This document shows, piece after piece, positions 25,039 to 31,423 of a stretch of DNA of 64,000 nucleotides. The DNA comes from Luteolibacter yonseiensis (lineage in GTDB: Bacteria > Verrucomicrobiota > Verrucomicrobiia > Verrucomicrobiales > Akkermansiaceae). The position numbers and the translations under genes were made by a program. Within the stretch, counting starts at the first letter, position 1. Each line of letters starts with the position of its first letter. Where the stretch lies: assembly GCF_016595465.1 (NCBI RefSeq), contig NZ_JAENIK010000011.1:1-64000 (forward strand), given 5' to 3'. Below the pieces are notes generated by a model. The model did no database searches. It had not been told where the DNA came from and was given only the letters and a program-made list of their open reading frames with translations.

Positions 25039-25545
25039 TCAATCCAGGCTGAAGTCGAAGGTCTGGGTGAAGGTCATTCTGACGGGCACATTGTTCCTTT
25101 TCATCGGCAGATACCGCCAGCGCAGGACCGATTGGACCGCGGCAAGACCGAACTCAGGGCGGGAGGCGTTCTTTACTTTCGCGGAAACCACGGCGCCGTT
25201 TTCGTCCACAACGAAAACCAGTTTCGCGAATCCCTCGATCTTCTTTTCTTTCAAGGCTGCCGGATAACGGGGCTGGGACATCAAGATGATCCGTGGGGGT
25301 TCATCCAGCCCCCTCCGGTCGGAATGGACGGAGCGGTTGTAATCGTCCAAATCCAGCTCTTTCCTCACCAACAGGCCGTGTTTTCCTTCGCCCATGTCAA
25401 CTTCCACGAGGGAGCTCTTCGTTTTCAGGCGTTTTCCGGCTGATGGGGTCGGGGCTTTTTCCGGAGCACAACCGGGCAGAGCCGCGAAAATCATGATGCC
25501 GAGGAATACGTGAAAATGCGATTTGATGCCGTGCGGCTGTTTCAT
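25039..25545 (-). CDS. Lipoprotein with a TonB C-terminal domain
   Basis: A 168-residue protein with a lipoprotein signal (FAALPGC, Cys about residue 26) and no long membrane anchor or Pro-rich linker. The C-terminal third follows the TonB_C pattern: PRYPAALKEKKIEGFAKLVF, DENGAVVSAKV, and VLRWRYLP. TonB normally sits in the inner membrane by an N-terminal helix, so a lipid-anchored copy is odd. It may be a stand-alone domain working in the outer membrane, or an inner-membrane lipoprotein. It converges with the acyltransferase gene. Confidence 0.75.
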   Translation of the reverse strand: MKQPHGIKSHFHVFLGIMIFAALPGCAPEKAPTPSAGKRLKTKSSLVEVDMGEGKHGLLVRKELDLDDYNRSVHSDRRGLDEPPRIILMSQPRYPAALKEKKIEGFAKLVFVVDENGAVVSAKVKNASRPEFGLAAVQSVLRWRYLPMKRNNVPVRMTFTQTFDFSLD

Positions 25546-25658
25546 GCGCGCGAAGTTGGCGATGACCCCGGCACGGTTCAATGAGATTCCGGCGGGAATC
25601 TAACTGATCTTTGGGAAATCGTCCCCTTGGCATTGGCGGCGACGCCGCCGTCCCGGCG

Positions 25659-26444
25659 TCACATCCGGAAATCCTCTCCGAGGTAGTATTTGCGGGCGGT
25701 CGGATCATCCACCAGTTCGGCGGAATTTCCTTCCAGGATGACGCGGCCATCATGGATGAGGAAGGCACGGTCGGTGATGCTGAGCGTCTCCCGCACGGAG
25801 TGGTCGGTAATCAGAATGGCCAGGCCATCCCGCTCGCGCAGCTCGCGGACGATGCTCTGGATGTCCTCGACCGCGAGAGGATCGATGCCGGCGAACGGCT
25901 CGTCGAGCATCAGCAAGGTCGGGTCCGAACAAAGCGAGCGGGCGATGGCGAGGCGGCGCTTTTCCCCACCGGAGAGAGTGATGGCGATGGACTTGGCGAG
26001 CCTGGAAATCTTGAACCGCTCCAGCAGTTCGTGCGCGCGGTCCTTGCGGTCCGAGCGGCTGAGGTTCGGACGGGTTTCGAGAATGGCGAGGAGATTGTCC
26101 AATACCGAAAGCTTGCGGAAAATCGATTCCTCCTGCGGCAGGTAGCCGAGGCCGAGGCGGGCGCGGCGGTGCATCGGCATTTTTGACAGGTCGTGGCCGT
26201 TGAAACAGACGGAGCCGGCGTCCGCCGGGATCAGCCCGGCGATCATGTAGAAGGAGGTGGTTTTGCCAGCGCCGTTCGGTCCCAGCAGGCCGACGATTTC
26301 GCGGGGCTGGACGGTGATGGAGACACCGTCGACGACCGCGCGGCCGCCATAGGTCTTGCGCAGGCCGTTGGCGAAGAGCACGGCCTTGTCGGTGTTCGAG
26401 CAGGTGGAGCCGGGCGTGTGCGACTTGCAGGGATTCGGGATCAC
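25659..26444 (-). CDS. lptB: LPS export ABC transporter ATPase
   Basis: LptB drives LPS extraction from the inner membrane together with LptF/LptG. The 261-residue protein has Walker A GPNGAGKTT (55-63), signature LSGGEKRR (157-164) and Walker B LLMLDE (177-182). It also has the LptB-typical HDLSKMPMHRRARLGLGYLPQE segment and ITDHSVRETL. The start is GTG at 26444; an internal GTG near residue 22 would remove an N-terminus unlike other LptB. It follows the LptC/A-like gene after 45 bases. LptF and LptG are not in the window. Confidence 0.93.
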   Translation of the reverse strand: MIPNPCKSHTPGSTCSNTDKAVLFANGLRKTYGGRAVVDGVSITVQPREIVGLLGPNGAGKTTSFYMIAGLIPADAGSVCFNGHDLSKMPMHRRARLGLGYLPQEESIFRKLSVLDNLLAILETRPNLSRSDRKDRAHELLERFKISRLAKSIAITLSGGEKRRLAIARSLCSDPTLLMLDEPFAGIDPLAVEDIQSIVRELRERDGLAILITDHSVRETLSITDRAFLIHDGRVILEGNSAELVDDPTARKYYLGEDFRM

Positions 26445-26489
26445 GGGAATGAAGGGGATGGAGCTGAAACGATGGCGACGCCCGGGCGG

Positions 26490-27824
26490 TTATTTCTTTT
26501 TGAGCACTTCCGGCGGAACGTAGAGTTGGAATCCGCCGCCGGGGGTGCTGATCTTGAAATTTTTGAAGTCCGAGACGCGCACCGTATTGCCATCTTTGGT
26601 CCCACGCAGGATGGCGTTCCCTTGGCTGAACCACGGCGGGCCGCCGGTGACAACGATCTCTTCGGTTTTGACGTTGTAGGTGAAAACCCTTCCGCTGACT
26701 TGAGCGGGAATCTGGCCGGGTTTGAGGTTCTTCTGTTTGATGAGGATGCCGCCTGTCGCGACGATCCGCTCCAGTTCTCCCATTTTTCCGCCGAAATCTC
26801 CGAACGGTTTTTTCGATTTGTCTGCTTCGGGAGCTTCCGGGGACTTTTCCGGCTTTTCCGGCTTTTCCGGCTTTTCCGGCTTTTCCGGCTTTTCCGGCTT
26901 TTTCCCGAAAAAGAGTTTCACCTCGTCCGCGCCGGTAAGATCGAAATCCGTAGTGGAGGCCCGGACATTCTTCAGGAACGTGCATTGTCCGGCCTCCATG
27001 TCGAAGTAGAATCCACCATCGAAATCGATGGTGTTGCCATTTTTGTCCGGAGCGATGTCCGGCGGCTGCGGAACGGGGGTGGGGGCCGGATTTGCGCCAG
27101 TTCCGTCGGCGAGAAGGTCCTGTTGATCCAGAAATTCGGTGGCCGCCCGGGTGGCGTCTTCGGATTTTTTCAGAGCCTCGCGCAGCTCCGCCCGGGTCGC
27201 CTTGCCTGCCTCGGCGATCGCGGCGGCCTGGGATGGGGAGGCCACCTCCGGTTTTTCCTCGGCTGCGGCGGGAAGCGCTGTGGCAAGAGCCAGGCTGGCG
27301 GCTGCGGTGGCGCGGAGGGAGACGGGCTTGGATTTCATGGTCTTCTGGAAATTCTCGGGTAGGGTGGTGGTGCCGGGGCCGTGGAGAAAGCCCTTGCCCC
27401 GGAGGAAATCGAAGTGAAGGCCGGTGCCGTGGGTCGTCATGCCATCGATCTTGATTTCCACCGCCTCGTCCGCCACGAGGAGCTGTTTGGTGACAGGTGG
27501 TTTCCCCTGTCCCGTCGCGGCCTTCTCCTCGAAGAAGTTGACATTGTTCAGGTTGATGTGGCCGCGGGAGGTCTGGTCCGCGTTGTAAAGCTCTATGGTA
27601 ACTTCCTTCCCCGCCATCTGGCCGGGGTTGACGAGCGTCATCACCTTCGATCTCAGCACCCCCACGAGTTTGCGGTTCTCGTCGTAACGGGGGATCATGA
27701 TGCCCTTGAGCTGGCTTCCGTCCGGGAGCAGGCCCAGCATGCCCTCGCTTTTTTTCCCATTGCCTCCGGTCTCCCTTGCGATGGCAGGGGAGACGAGCAG
27801 AAGCACTGTGAGGAGGCGGAGCAT
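26490..27824 (-). CDS. LptC/LptA-like LPS transport protein (apparent fusion)
   Basis: A 444-residue protein just after kdsA and before lptB. The N-terminus is a signal (MLRLLTVLLLVSPAIA), and residues about 20-160 look like an LptC-type periplasmic domain (GMTTHGTGLHFDFLRGKGFLHG). At Met163 a second signal-peptide-like segment begins (MKSKPVSLRATAAASLALA, ending AAAEE). Then come Ala-rich helix, Pro linker and an OstA/LptA-like beta domain (about 265-440) split by six PEK repeats. No stop codon separates the halves. It could bridge inner and outer membranes in LPS transport. Whether Met163 is used as a second start is unknown. Confidence 0.7.
   Translation of the reverse strand: MLRLLTVLLLVSPAIARETGGNGKKSEGMLGLLPDGSQLKGIMIPRYDENRKLVGVLRSKVMTLVNPGQMAGKEVTIELYNADQTSRGHINLNNVNFFEEKAATGQGKPPVTKQLLVADEAVEIKIDGMTTHGTGLHFDFLRGKGFLHGPGTTTLPENFQKTMKSKPVSLRATAAASLALATALPAAAEEKPEVASPSQAAAIAEAGKATRAELREALKKSEDATRAATEFLDQQDLLADGTGANPAPTPVPQPPDIAPDKNGNTIDFDGGFYFDMEAGQCTFLKNVRASTTDFDLTGADEVKLFFGKKPEKPEKPEKPEKPEKPEKSPEAPEADKSKKPFGDFGGKMGELERIVATGGILIKQKNLKPGQIPAQVSGRVFTYNVKTEEIVVTGGPPWFSQGNAILRGTKDGNTVRVSDFKNFKISTPGGGFQLYVPPEVLKKK
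26844..26897 (-). repeat. Six perfect 9-bp tandem repeats coding Pro-Glu-Lys
   Basis: Six identical CTTTTCCGG units on the plus strand, giving PEK six times in the LptC/LptA-like protein. The unit is a multiple of three, so copy number could change without a frameshift. Confidence 0.9.
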
Positions 27825-27835
27825 CGGGAGGAGTG

Positions 27836-28654
27836 TCAGTGCGAGGCGTGGTGGATGGCGATGAGTTTGACGAGCAGGTCCTCGATAAATTCAAGTGGAA
27901 TTTGATTGGGACCATCCGAGACGGCGTTCGCAGGATCGGAATGGACCTCCATGAACAGGCCGTCGATGCCGGTGGCCACCGCCGCGCGCGCGAGAACCGG
28001 GGCGAGCACGCCATCTCCGCCGGTGGCGCCGCCGAGGCCTCCCGGCCGCTGGACGGAGTGGGTGGCGTCGAAGATGACGGGCAGCCCCTCCTCACGCATC
28101 CAGTAGAGCGAGCGCATGTCGACCACGAGATTGTTGTAGCCGAAGGTGGTGCCACGCTCGGTGATGAGGAATTTCTCACATCCGAACGCACGCATTTTCC
28201 CGGCGATGTTCACGGTGTCGAGCGGTGCGAGGAACTGGCCTTTCTTGACATTCACGGAGCGGCCGGTCTTCGCGGCGGCTTCGAGCAGGTCGGTCTGGCG
28301 GCAGAGGAACGCGGGAATCTGCAGGAGATCCACGAAGCTGGCGGCGATCTCCGCCTGCTCGATGGTGTGGATGTCCGTGGTGACCGGCACACCGAGCTCC
28401 TTGCCGATTTCGCCGAGGATCCGGCAGCCTTCCAGCACCCCCGGTCCGCGGAAGGCTCCGACCGAAGTGCGGTTCGCCTTGTCGAACGAGGCCTTGAAAA
28501 TGAAATGAATGCCGGTGCGGTCGGCTATTTCCTTGAGCGAACGCGCCATGTCCCAGGCGAATTCCTCGGACTCAAGCGCGCATGGGCCGAGAATGAAAAA
28601 CGGCGCTGGACCGCCGACAGGAACATTGCCGATGTGGAAAGGGTCGAAAGTCAT
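27836..28654 (-). CDS. kdsA: 3-deoxy-8-phosphooctulonate synthase (KDO 8-phosphate synthase)
   Basis: KdsA joins arabinose 5-phosphate and phosphoenolpyruvate to KDO 8-phosphate, needed for the LPS core. The 272-residue protein has the family landmarks FILGPCALES, FKASFDKANRTS, RGPG and TERGTTFGYNNLVVDMR. DATHSVQRPGG and DGVLAPVLARAAVA come later, ending in the metal/substrate loop MEVHSDP. Length is normal. It is followed 11 bases later by the LptC/A-like gene, so LPS synthesis and transport are linked in one cluster. Confidence 0.96.
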   Translation of the reverse strand: MTFDPFHIGNVPVGGPAPFFILGPCALESEEFAWDMARSLKEIADRTGIHFIFKASFDKANRTSVGAFRGPGVLEGCRILGEIGKELGVPVTTDIHTIEQAEIAASFVDLLQIPAFLCRQTDLLEAAAKTGRSVNVKKGQFLAPLDTVNIAGKMRAFGCEKFLITERGTTFGYNNLVVDMRSLYWMREEGLPVIFDATHSVQRPGGLGGATGGDGVLAPVLARAAVATGIDGLFMEVHSDPANAVSDGPNQIPLEFIEDLLVKLIAIHHASH

Positions 28655-28686
28655 TTGAATGGGTGATCGGTGTGAACGGTTGCGCG

Positions 28687-28959
28687 TCAGTGCTGGGCGG
28701 ACGCAAGCGCAGTCTGGTAGAGCGGGCGGAGGTTGTCGAGGGCGGTTGCGAGAAGCTTCTCCTCAGTAGGGGTGAGATTCCCGAGTGTCTTGAAGGAAAT
28801 CATCTCCAGCGAATCGATGACGGATTTCGCCGCGCGGAGGTTCACCTGCTTTTCCCCGGTGTGCGGATTGGGAATCTGGCCGAGGAAGAGACCGGCGTTC
28901 TGGGCCTGGAGGATGACGAATTCATTGAAGCGGGGATCGGCTTCGGGCGCTGCTGACAT
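28687..28959 (-). CDS. DUF1844 protein
   Basis: A 90-residue protein matching the DUF1844 pattern: FNEFVILQAQNAGLFLGQIPNP, then the helical stretch VNLRAAKSVIDSLEMISFKTLGNLTPTE. These small proteins have no known function. It lies 32 bases before kdsA on the same strand and may lead the LPS cluster message. The open frame reaches 29265, but the extra N-terminal part is low-complexity and unlike the family. Confidence 0.85.
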   Translation of the reverse strand: MSAAPEADPRFNEFVILQAQNAGLFLGQIPNPHTGEKQVNLRAAKSVIDSLEMISFKTLGNLTPTEEKLLATALDNLRPLYQTALASAQH

Positions 28960-29185
28960 GGGAGGAGGTTCCTGAGTTTCCGGGAGGATGACAAGAGGGA
29001 AGACGCGGGTCCGGCATGCGGCGATTCCGGTATCGAAATTGAAACCGGAGCCGATGGGCCGGGCCTGGCGGGAGGAACCGAACCGGCCGCCGGATCCCCG
29101 CGATCCGTCAGCTCCACCCGATTGAGGGGGCGGGTTTCCCTTCCCAAAAAAGCGCGTTGTGGTGGATGACTGTGCTCCGCCACCC

Positions 29186-31423
29186 ATGAAAACCCATTTT
29201 CTCATTTCTCTCGCCTGCGCCGCTGCCGGAGCCCTGGCCACGGCGCATCCGATCGGCAACGTCAACCGCTACCTCTCCAACTCGGCACGCACGGATGTCA
29301 TCGGACCGGACATGTGGACCACCCTCAGGGAGCTCAATGACGGACGTGTCGGTCGCCCGGATACGCCGGAGTCGGGCATGCCGCAGATGCCGGAGGAAAA
29401 CTGGGGCAGGCCGGGGCTCGGGATGCAGGGCGTGTTCTGCGCCGGTCATCAGACACCATTGGAAAATCTCATCTCCATCGAAACGAGCGAAAAACTCGTG
29501 GTGACGCGCCACCAATGGACTCCCGCATGGTCGCTCAGCTATTACCGCGCGCTGCCTTCCGGCAGGCCCGGAACCTCGCCGCTGGCAGGAGCGCTTTCGA
29601 TCAAGGAAACCAAGTGCGTCACTCCGGAGGACGTGTTCGTCGGTGAGCTGGAAATCCTGAACGACCACAGGGAGGCGGCTCCTTTCGACATCGAGCTGAT
29701 CCATCCCGGACTCAACCGGACCGGCGGACGCGTCACTTTCACCGCTGTCACGAATGTCGGTGGCATCGCCCGTGACGGCAGGGGTTGGGAAATCAACGGG
29801 AGTGGCTGGCTCTCCACCCGTGGCGATATTGATTTTGGTAAAAACCTCATCATCCCGCCACAGCGGACGCTCAGATTGAGATACGCCTTCGCCGTCGATC
29901 ACGTCGGCACCACGGACGCGGAGGAACGTGTCGCCGCCGCTTTGACGGAGACGGACCCCTTCAAGCGCAATGAAGCGGATTTCAACTCCTGGTTTGTCAA
30001 AAACGTCCCGGCGTTCTCCACCAGCGATCCGGACATCCTCAAGCTGTATTATTACCGCTGGTTTCTCGTGAAACGGGCCATCCACGATCCGAAAAAATTC
30101 ATTCCGGGACATCCCTACAAACGTCCTGCGATTTACGAGAGTCCTATCGGCGACTGGTTCTGCGCGGTCATCGGCCTGCCCATCCCGGTGCAGGTTCAGG
30201 AAGTCCGCTGGCTCCGTGACATCACTCCGGGAAAGAATCATATCCTGAACTGGGCGGAAAACGTGCATTATCAATATCGTGAATACCTCCAGTTCACGCC
30301 CGCCGCCTTGTGGAACTTCTACAAGATCCACCCGGATGCGGAGATCCTCAACGCCGTGGCCCAGCCCGCCACGGACTACGCGTGGAAGGACGTCCCGGTG
30401 CATGGACAGCCGCAGCTTCCGGTACAGCGGGGGAGCTGGCCGACCGGTGCCGAGTACCAGCCGAATTTCTACCAGTTCACCAAGCCCGAGCCGTGGGACT
30501 GGCGGCACGACGCGCAGGGGGCGGGCGAGGGGTTTCCGATCGCGGAATCCGTCCGGCTGGACAAGGCCAGCTTCACCATCGCCAATCTTTACGGCGCGGC
30601 GAACTTCATGGAACTGCTGGATAACAAAAAGAGCTTCACCGACAGCAGGAACCAGGCGGACCGCATGCTGAAAACCATCGAGGAGAAACACTGGAAGGAT
30701 GGATTCTTCTACTCCACCGATCCGGAAACCCACGCGCTCGCGGATCAGGCCGCCTGTTATGACGGCTTCCTGCCATTTCTTTTCGGCATGGAAAAGAAGC
30801 CGGAATATTTCGCCGCGTTCGACAAATTCTTCGATCCGAAGTGGTTCTGGTCGGAATTCCCCATCACCACCGTCGCGAAAAACAATCCCATGTATTGGAG
30901 CGGAAACGCCATCGCGGGGCCGACCGCATCAAGTGTTGAAAAGCCCCATGTCTACCCGTGCAGTTGGAACGGCCCGATGTGGAATTACAACAACTCCGCC
31001 ATGTGCGAGGCGCTTGGTTCTGTCGCGACTTCGTCGGGCGGAGAGCGCTTCCGTGACGGATGGCTGGAATTCCACCGCCGCTGGTCGGAGAGTCATTTCG
31101 TTTATGGAGACCGTTCGGTGCCTTGCGCGATGGAGCATCTGCGGCCTACCGACGGCTCGAACTTCCGCCGCCAGGTGGTCGATTATTTCCACAGCGCGTG
31201 GCTGGACTCCACCTTCAGCTACTGGGCGGGGATCCGGGTGACCGACAAGCGCGACAAGGTGATCTTCGATCCGCTCACGAAAGAGGACTTCAGGCTGGAG
31301 AATGTTCCTTCCGGAGGTCGCGAGCTGACATTTGTCCAGGAAGGCGGCGTCCGCAGGGTGCTGGGCAAGGATGGGGCCGGTCTGGCGGAAGGGCGGGGGA
31401 TGTTGGAAATTCCGGTGCGTTGA
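29186..31423 (+). CDS. Secreted MGH1/trehalase-like glycoside hydrolase
   Basis: A 745-residue exported protein (signal peptide MKTHFLISLACAAAGALATA). A beta-sandwich N-terminal part (about 70-260) precedes an (alpha/alpha)6 barrel (about 290-745), as in GH63-like and MGH1-type glycosidases. Aromatic and acidic clusters typical of sugar sites are visible, such as PIGDWFC, WRHDAQGAGEGFP, DGFFYSTDPETHALADQAACYDG split across loops, and PCSWNGPMWNYNNS. The substrate is not clear. It stands alone on the plus strand, divergent from the LPS cluster. Confidence 0.75.
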   Translation: MKTHFLISLACAAAGALATAHPIGNVNRYLSNSARTDVIGPDMWTTLRELNDGRVGRPDTPESGMPQMPEENWGRPGLGMQGVFCAGHQTPLENLISIETSEKLVVTRHQWTPAWSLSYYRALPSGRPGTSPLAGALSIKETKCVTPEDVFVGELEILNDHREAAPFDIELIHPGLNRTGGRVTFTAVTNVGGIARDGRGWEINGSGWLSTRGDIDFGKNLIIPPQRTLRLRYAFAVDHVGTTDAEERVAAALTETDPFKRNEADFNSWFVKNVPAFSTSDPDILKLYYYRWFLVKRAIHDPKKFIPGHPYKRPAIYESPIGDWFCAVIGLPIPVQVQEVRWLRDITPGKNHILNWAENVHYQYREYLQFTPAALWNFYKIHPDAEILNAVAQPATDYAWKDVPVHGQPQLPVQRGSWPTGAEYQPNFYQFTKPEPWDWRHDAQGAGEGFPIAESVRLDKASFTIANLYGAANFMELLDNKKSFTDSRNQADRMLKTIEEKHWKDGFFYSTDPETHALADQAACYDGFLPFLFGMEKKPEYFAAFDKFFDPKWFWSEFPITTVAKNNPMYWSGNAIAGPTASSVEKPHVYPCSWNGPMWNYNNSAMCEALGSVATSSGGERFRDGWLEFHRRWSESHFVYGDRSVPCAMEHLRPTDGSNFRRQVVDYFHSAWLDSTFSYWAGIRVTDKRDKVIFDPLTKEDFRLENVPSGGRELTFVQEGGVRRVLGKDGAGLAEGRGMLEIPVR

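Follow-up and report, generated by a model that had tools for sequence, protein, structure and literature searches.

Does the single open reading frame between kdsA and lptB of Luteolibacter yonseiensis encode one lipopolysaccharide (LPS) transport protein or two? In the 64,000-nucleotide stretch of DNA analysed here (hereafter the window), reading of the ORFs gave a 444-aa frame on the minus strand at 26490–27824, from an ATG at 27822–27824 to a stop at 26490–26492 (444 codons plus the stop). A preliminary description, made from the letters of the window, had reported this frame as an LptC-like domain followed by an OstA/LptA-like domain with a signal-like stretch starting at Met163 between them, and had offered three explanations for the stretch: a relic of a stop-loss fusion, a second membrane segment, or a second translation start. 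The frame was found as described, unbroken, and no stop occurs in the window sequence near 27340, where the description had thought that resequencing might reveal one. The features of the locus are as follows:

27836–28654, minus strand: kdsA (KDO-8-phosphate synthase), upstream neighbour (TIGR01362, 364.7 bits)
26490–27824, minus strand: lptC-lptA in a single frame of 444 aa (130 of 156 classified loci are fused in this way)
27768–27824, minus strand: N-terminal signal-like stretch, residues 1–19, MLRLLTVLLLVSPAIARET (from the sequence; hydrophobic in the same region of relatives)
27345–27728, minus strand: LptC-like beta-jellyroll, residues 33–160 (pLDDT mostly >90; 3my2 and 4b54_B matches; PF06835 in relatives)
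27321–27359, minus strand: unstructured RNA segment, −21 to +18 of the internal start (MFE −0.1 kcal/mol in the segment)
27336–27338, minus strand: putative internal start codon, Met163 (invariant column in 53 sequences; start in 122 of 130 fused loci)
27255–27338, minus strand: internal signal-peptide-like stretch, residues 163–190 (from the sequence; pLDDT <50 for 163–169 and 177–190; hydrophobic peak in relatives)
27123–27236, minus strand: predicted helix, residues 197–234, between the signal and the LptA domain (AlphaFold2 model)
26505–27035, minus strand: LptA-like beta-jellyroll, residues 264–440 (model; 2r1a_C and 4uu4 matches; PF03968 in relatives)
26844–26902, minus strand: 9-bp tandem repeat, 6.6 copies, Pro-Glu-Lys run (in an LptA-domain loop modelled with low confidence)
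25659–26444, minus strand: lptB (Lpt ABC ATPase), downstream neighbour

The lptB assignment rests on TIGR04406 (340.1 bits), and lptC, lptA and lptB thus lie side by side at the window locus. The arrangement resembles that of E. coli in having two beta-jellyrolls in the order LptC, LptA, followed by lptB (the E. coli operon order is lptC-lptA-lptB), and differs in that LptC and LptA are two genes there and one reading frame here. When the window genome was searched, the window locus was the single match both to its own protein (13 of 13 candidates scored) and to the family profile (7 of 17 candidates scored), so that the gene stands beside lptB in single copy, as was looked for in an LptA/OstA gene. 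LptF/LptG-like genes are also present in this genome, as is a large frame matching LptD_N that is probably lptD. One LptF/LptG-like frame of 613 aa (G000:C10:31075-32274; L249, L250) matches its family in two parts, and a second of 376 aa (G000:C11:852500) in one part. Clustering of Lpt genes was reported only in Proteobacteria among 85 genomes (PMC8871954). No Rfam family matched in the window at gathering scores.

The two halves were assigned from an AlphaFold2 model built from the window protein aligned with 52 relatives (mean pLDDT 80.8). It contains two confident beta-strand domains, at residues ~33–160 and 264–440, with a low-confidence stretch within 163–190 between them. In structural alignments (VIA-align 2), the E. 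coli LptC structures 3my2 (Z 10.7, rmsd 2.8, 110 aligned) and 4b54_B (Z 10.8) fell on residues 34–157, while LptA 2r1a_C (Z 10.3 over 128 residues), 2r19_B (Z 9.7) and LptH 4uu4 (Z 10.0) aligned mainly with the second half; 6mit_C gave Z 14.3, but its aligned range, 34–296, extends into the second half. The best Foldseek matches were LptH 4uu4 (E 1.2e-5) and LptA 2r1a_C (E 1.0e-4). Since all Lpt jellyrolls share one fold and some LptC and LptD structures in the VIA-align 2 results cover both halves, the fold alone does not tell LptC from LptA, and the two were told apart by operon order and by the Pfam matches of relatives. PF03968 (LptA/LptD_N) was detected in 45 of the 53 aligned sequences at E ≤1 (best 3.8e-6) and PF06835 (LptC) in 23 of the 53 at the same threshold (best 1.3e-4), the window protein being among neither; one relative, the genus g32 chain L108, exceeds the curated cut-off of PF03968. 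The window protein itself matched no Pfam or NCBIfam LptC or LptA model, PF06835 matched nowhere in the window genome, and a sequence profile run against solved structures gave one weak LptA match (E 0.41). Predicted fold and relatives' Pfam matches together support an LptC-like first half and an LptA/LptH-like second half, which bears out the domain order of the preliminary description; its refuting case, relatives without LptC similarity in the first half, was not what the relatives showed. The hydrophobic stretch at the N-terminus of the LptC half is a putative anchor or cleaved signal, and is signal-like in appearance, whereas LptC is described as bitopic (PMC7347655). The 9-bp repeat at 26844–26902 is perfect and encodes the Pro-Glu-Lys run in a loop of the LptA domain; no such run was seen in 22 aligned relatives.

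The fused frame is widespread. The protein search matched 70 of the 73 genomes of the window's genus and 165 of the 195 sampled genomes of the family, the named relatives being mostly Akkermansiaceae or Verrucomicrobia bins. We classified 156 loci, one per genome: 70 from the window's genus, 85 from the 121 matched genomes of the rest of the family, and the order-level locus L040. Further genomes of genera g19, g25, g27 and g32 lie outside the 85, and five duplicate loci (L026–L030) were omitted. Both halves are fused in 130 loci, which represent 13 genera of one family; 24 loci are not in one frame, and 2 (L036 and L037) have the first half only. The 24 comprise 13 loci of g19 (a genus with small genomes, probably Akkermansia), five of the window's genus (L031–L033, L075 and L076), four of genus g29, L040 and L034. 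That the single frame is an assembly or sequencing artefact, through a lost stop or a frameshift, was rejected and can practically be discounted, as the 130 loci come from separate genomes, some in single contigs, and the frame is carried by cultured strains, namely Haloferula rosea KCTC 22201, Haloferula luteola YC6886 and Luteolibacter pohnpeiensis KCTC 22041. In L034 (G009) the junction is fused and the frame is broken inside the LptA half, which may reflect a genuine mutation or a misassembly of this metagenome bin; L210 is likewise split. In G198, a genome with 6% contamination, contigs C25 and C28 carry two copies of a long chain (867-aa frames).

The preliminary description had proposed a comparison with relatives for two-gene versions, and these were found in the outgroup, in g19, in g29 and in five loci of the window's genus. 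The order-level set consisted of 20 loci chosen from the profile-search matches in families f2 and f4 (f3 and f6 left out) and L040, and all 21 have two adjacent genes on one strand. The start and stop codons overlap by 4 bases in 7 of the 21, a candidate start lies one base past the stop in 7 more, and a few (e.g. L261) have an ambiguous second start. The two-gene loci of the order's other families and of g19 thus share with the fused loci two adjacent modules on one strand, and differ from them in having separate frames and hence no fusion product. Because the order-level outgroup loci are two-gene, two adjacent genes are likely to be ancestral and the fusion would be a feature of the family. 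A 154-row FastTree tree requires 6 changes between fused and split, at least 4 of which are forced by well-supported branches; the split rows include L034, and the direction of single changes is uncertain. The five split loci of the window's genus are nested among fused relatives; all have an ATGA overlap, and the ATG homologous to the inner one is their lptA start. In the four split g29 loci lptA starts 34–46 bases past the lptC stop, with no overlap. Provided that lptA is essential, a single-step split of a fused frame would require the inner ATG to be a working start beforehand. A stop-loss, the first explanation in the preliminary description, is thus a good account of the origin of the gene, the outgroup having adjacent and often overlapping genes, and a poor account of its present state, in which the start, the signal and the openness of the RNA are conserved in most of the family.

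Met163 (27336–27338) is followed by KSKPVSLRATAAASLALATALPAAAEE. Its column is one of 22 invariant columns among 23 sequences and one of 9 among 53. In the window's genus it holds Met in 61 of 62 fused loci, ranking 13 of 399 columns while lying within a variable stretch; the exception, L072, has Glu in the column and its Met displaced. Over the family, a start codon occupies the junction in 122 of the 130 fused loci, as ATG in 119 and as GTG in 3; the GTG loci are three close relatives (L125–L127) whose neighbour L124 has ATG. Eleven of the junction starts were set by hand, and the ATG counted for L137 lies inside the hydrophobic stretch, not before it. An automatic rule applied to the 130 fused loci found an ATG with a hydrophobic peak in 108, a peak without an ATG in range in 9 (three of them the GTG loci), an ATG with a weaker peak in 6, and neither in 7. 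As background, of 3234 arbitrary positions, 1050 had an ATG in the 22 codons upstream.

The stretch after this codon resembles a signal peptide. In 118 loci (the 122 with a junction start minus 4), the mean hydrophobic peak over 12 residues is 1.89, against 0.82 for other segments; the first dozen residues are net positive in 83%, and a small-x-Ala pattern follows in 77%. A few loci depart from the pairing of start and stretch: L137 (2.18) and L120 (1.58) have a hydrophobic peak with no preceding start, and L072 keeps the ATG with a hydrophilic stretch (0.73). Nine fused loci have no start before the stretch, and in 7 of them (six of g32 and L091) the hydrophobic stretch is lost as well, so that start and stretch vanish together in two separate places of the tree. 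The second option of the preliminary description, a membrane segment, is weakened by these data, since only 19% of the 118 inner stretches reach a Kyte-Doolittle mean of 1.6 over 19 residues (53% at the N-terminus) and since the stretch is gone in 7 of the 9 loci without a preceding start; besides, if the stretch acted as a stop-transfer segment, the LptA half would remain cytoplasmic.

The RNA around the junction start is unusually open. Over 122 loci, the 8 fused loci without a junction start being omitted, the MFE of the −21 to +18 segment averages −1.55 kcal/mol at the junction, compared with −7.09 at control positions elsewhere in these genes, and 47.5% of junctions but 3.0% of controls have a folding energy above −1. 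The 798 other Met codons in the genes average −7.96, and 0.75% of them exceed −1. Compared with the control mean of its own gene, the junction is less structured in 120 of the 122 loci, and so it is in the means of all 13 genera, with a small difference in genus g22 (−5.0 vs −5.3). Synonymous shuffles of the junction average −2.68, so that much of the low structure is set by the amino acids; codon choice adds to the openness (z +0.56 against the synonymous shuffles, −0.10 for the control). The NCN codon before the inner start ends in C in 86 of 111 cases vs 51% elsewhere, and fourfold sites are more often alike between close relatives near the start (171 of 210) than in the LptC body (692 of 975).

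An inner start driven by a Shine-Dalgarno (SD) sequence was rejected: SD pairing at the junction (−0.85) is weaker than at ordinary codons (−2.34), and the same holds for the starts of kdsA (−0.12, 134 loci) and lptB (−0.65, 115 loci). Akkermansia is listed as SD-scarce (PMC10783764), and non-SD genes of many species tend to have relaxed structure at the start (PMC5397173). The junction features appear to be the look of starts where SD sequences are rare. A conserved start codon with an initiation-like context, which is what is expected of a nested gene, was found at the junction. Two other mechanisms were considered as candidates. One was programmed frameshifting onto the TGA of the junction ATGA, which is present in 97 of 122 loci; the other was a separate promoter inside lptC, a pattern scan of 25500–29200 giving two promoter-like sites, one on the minus strand inside kdsA (28221–28194) and the other on the plus strand.

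The comparison thus confirmed that the unbroken frame, the putative start codon, the signal-like stretch and the open RNA are conserved in most of the family, more than by chance. Among the three options of the preliminary description, a second translation start is the one best supported by these patterns. We consider it probable that the locus is one gene with two products, an LptC-LptA fusion and a free LptA made from the internal start. The start codon and the RNA features are predicted neither by a polyprotein nor by a plain fusion. In a polyprotein the long chain alone would be translated, and signal peptidase would release LptA by cutting at the inner signal. The small-x-Ala pattern, which looks like a cleavage site, agrees with such processing, and a free LptA would need a pattern of this kind too; the cytochrome b/c1 gene of Bradyrhizobium is presumably a precedent. 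A polyprotein, however, needs no start codon, no GTG substitute in the three loci that lack the ATG and keep the signal, and no unstructured RNA, and since its LptC half would already be periplasmic, the inner stretch would be wrongly oriented to act as a signal. We regard this explanation as unlikely.

If the internal start is used, it may be asked whether the long chain matters at all. Free LptA from the internal start could be the product that counts, with the LptA tail on LptC a tolerated by-product of no function, so that two proteins are made in effect. Fusion is not essential in general, as several lineages of the family, like the 21 outgroup loci, still have the two genes apart. On the other hand, the frame has stayed continuous although the junction has changed length 31 times by parsimony, including 13 changes within the window's genus. 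In all 116 fused loci that could be measured, a conserved GP-type motif and the inner start are separated by a multiple of 3 (L034 and L040 were dropped, as were 6 of the 122 loci with a junction start, in which the anchor could not be read), while all three phases occur among the 13 split loci of g19. Because fused loci are in frame by definition, this comparison rests on few split lineages, and the anchor is less sure outside the window's genus. Setting ~5 frame-breaking changes against the 31 length changes, with a one-in-three chance of staying in frame, gives a rough P of ~9e-11; for the window's genus alone, 13 changes vs 2 or 3 give P 3e-5 to 1e-4, also rough. The fusion itself therefore appears to be kept as well, and a functionless tail, against which the dependence of some genomes on the fused chain (see below) also speaks, is in our view about as unlikely as a polyprotein, or slightly more so.

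The exceptions in genus g32 are informative about a third alternative, in which the 444-aa protein would be the sole product and the inner stretch a relic or linker. Six of the seven g32 loci taken (L108–L113) have frames of 819–853 residues encoding LptC and three LptA modules, without the inner start and without the hydrophobic stretch; in the seventh, L107, a single LptA module is accompanied by the inner start and the signal. L091 has lost start and stretch and has one LptA module. In the seven g32 genomes the profile found, at E ≤1, no locus besides the fused one, and PF03968 matched, besides that locus, one frame of 828–1096 residues (LptD-sized) and weak matches. The six g32 genomes and G165, in which the profile found no separate copy, seem to depend solely on the fused chain. 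These six loci and L091 look exactly like plain fusions, and L120 and L137 may be on the way, but the seven have a hydrophilic stretch and no start codon, whereas most fused genes keep both, and neither an invariant Met nor open RNA would be expected of a relic. For the window gene, a plain fusion is therefore improbable.

Under the two-product reading, initiation at the first codon would yield the LptC-LptA fusion, and initiation at the conserved inner ATG, in its unstructured RNA context, would yield a free LptA that carries an N-terminal export signal of its own. The bridge would then begin at the inner membrane with the fusion, whose LptA half would serve as the first LptA unit, and free LptA would supply the further units towards LptD; the synthesis of both products, their arrival in the periplasm and the role of each are what we infer from the sequences. 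This geometry fits, as the E. coli bridge of LptC, LptA and LptD is thought to be a chain of jellyrolls in C-to-N contact (PMC7237710). The relative strength of the two starts may also be read from the sequence. In the region searched upstream of the LptC domain, in 128 of the 130 fused loci (2 were dropped), an ATG is present in 76, only GTG or TTG in 51, and only CTG, ATT or ATC in 1; for most of the 52 loci without ATG, TTG or GTG is the probable start of the long chain. A first start that is often weak, against an inner ATG in 119 of 122 loci, would yield more free LptA than fusion.

Second starts inside one frame, from which a shorter second product arises, are also known from Cas11b and other bacterial and archaeal in-frame internal-start genes (PMC11899642). 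The proposed inner product here differs in being a complete LPS transport protein with its own export signal, encoded by a separate gene in relatives. We found no description of an LptC-LptA fusion, in Verrucomicrobia and Akkermansia included, in the accessible text of open-licence papers. The fused gene appears to be a family-wide variant of the Lpt bridge, not an accident of the window genome. It joins two exported proteins, and the start and signal of the second appear to be kept under selection across the family; gene callers that report the long protein alone would miss a product.

How many LptA units make up the LPS bridge is described as unknown or debated in PMC7237710, PMC7347655 and PMC10863985. 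The natural LptC-LptA fusion, and the chain of LptC and three LptA modules without an inner start, offer bridges of fixed stoichiometry to test, and the latter, if true, would be a genetically fixed bridge showing how many LptA units are used. We tentatively suggest, as a possibility that we hold with less than even confidence, that the family sets the make-up of its LPS bridge in one gene, with a weakly started LptC-LptA base and a strongly started free LptA for the extra segments, and that in most sampled members of g32 this arrangement may have been replaced by the LptC and three-LptA chain, with loss of the inner start and signal.
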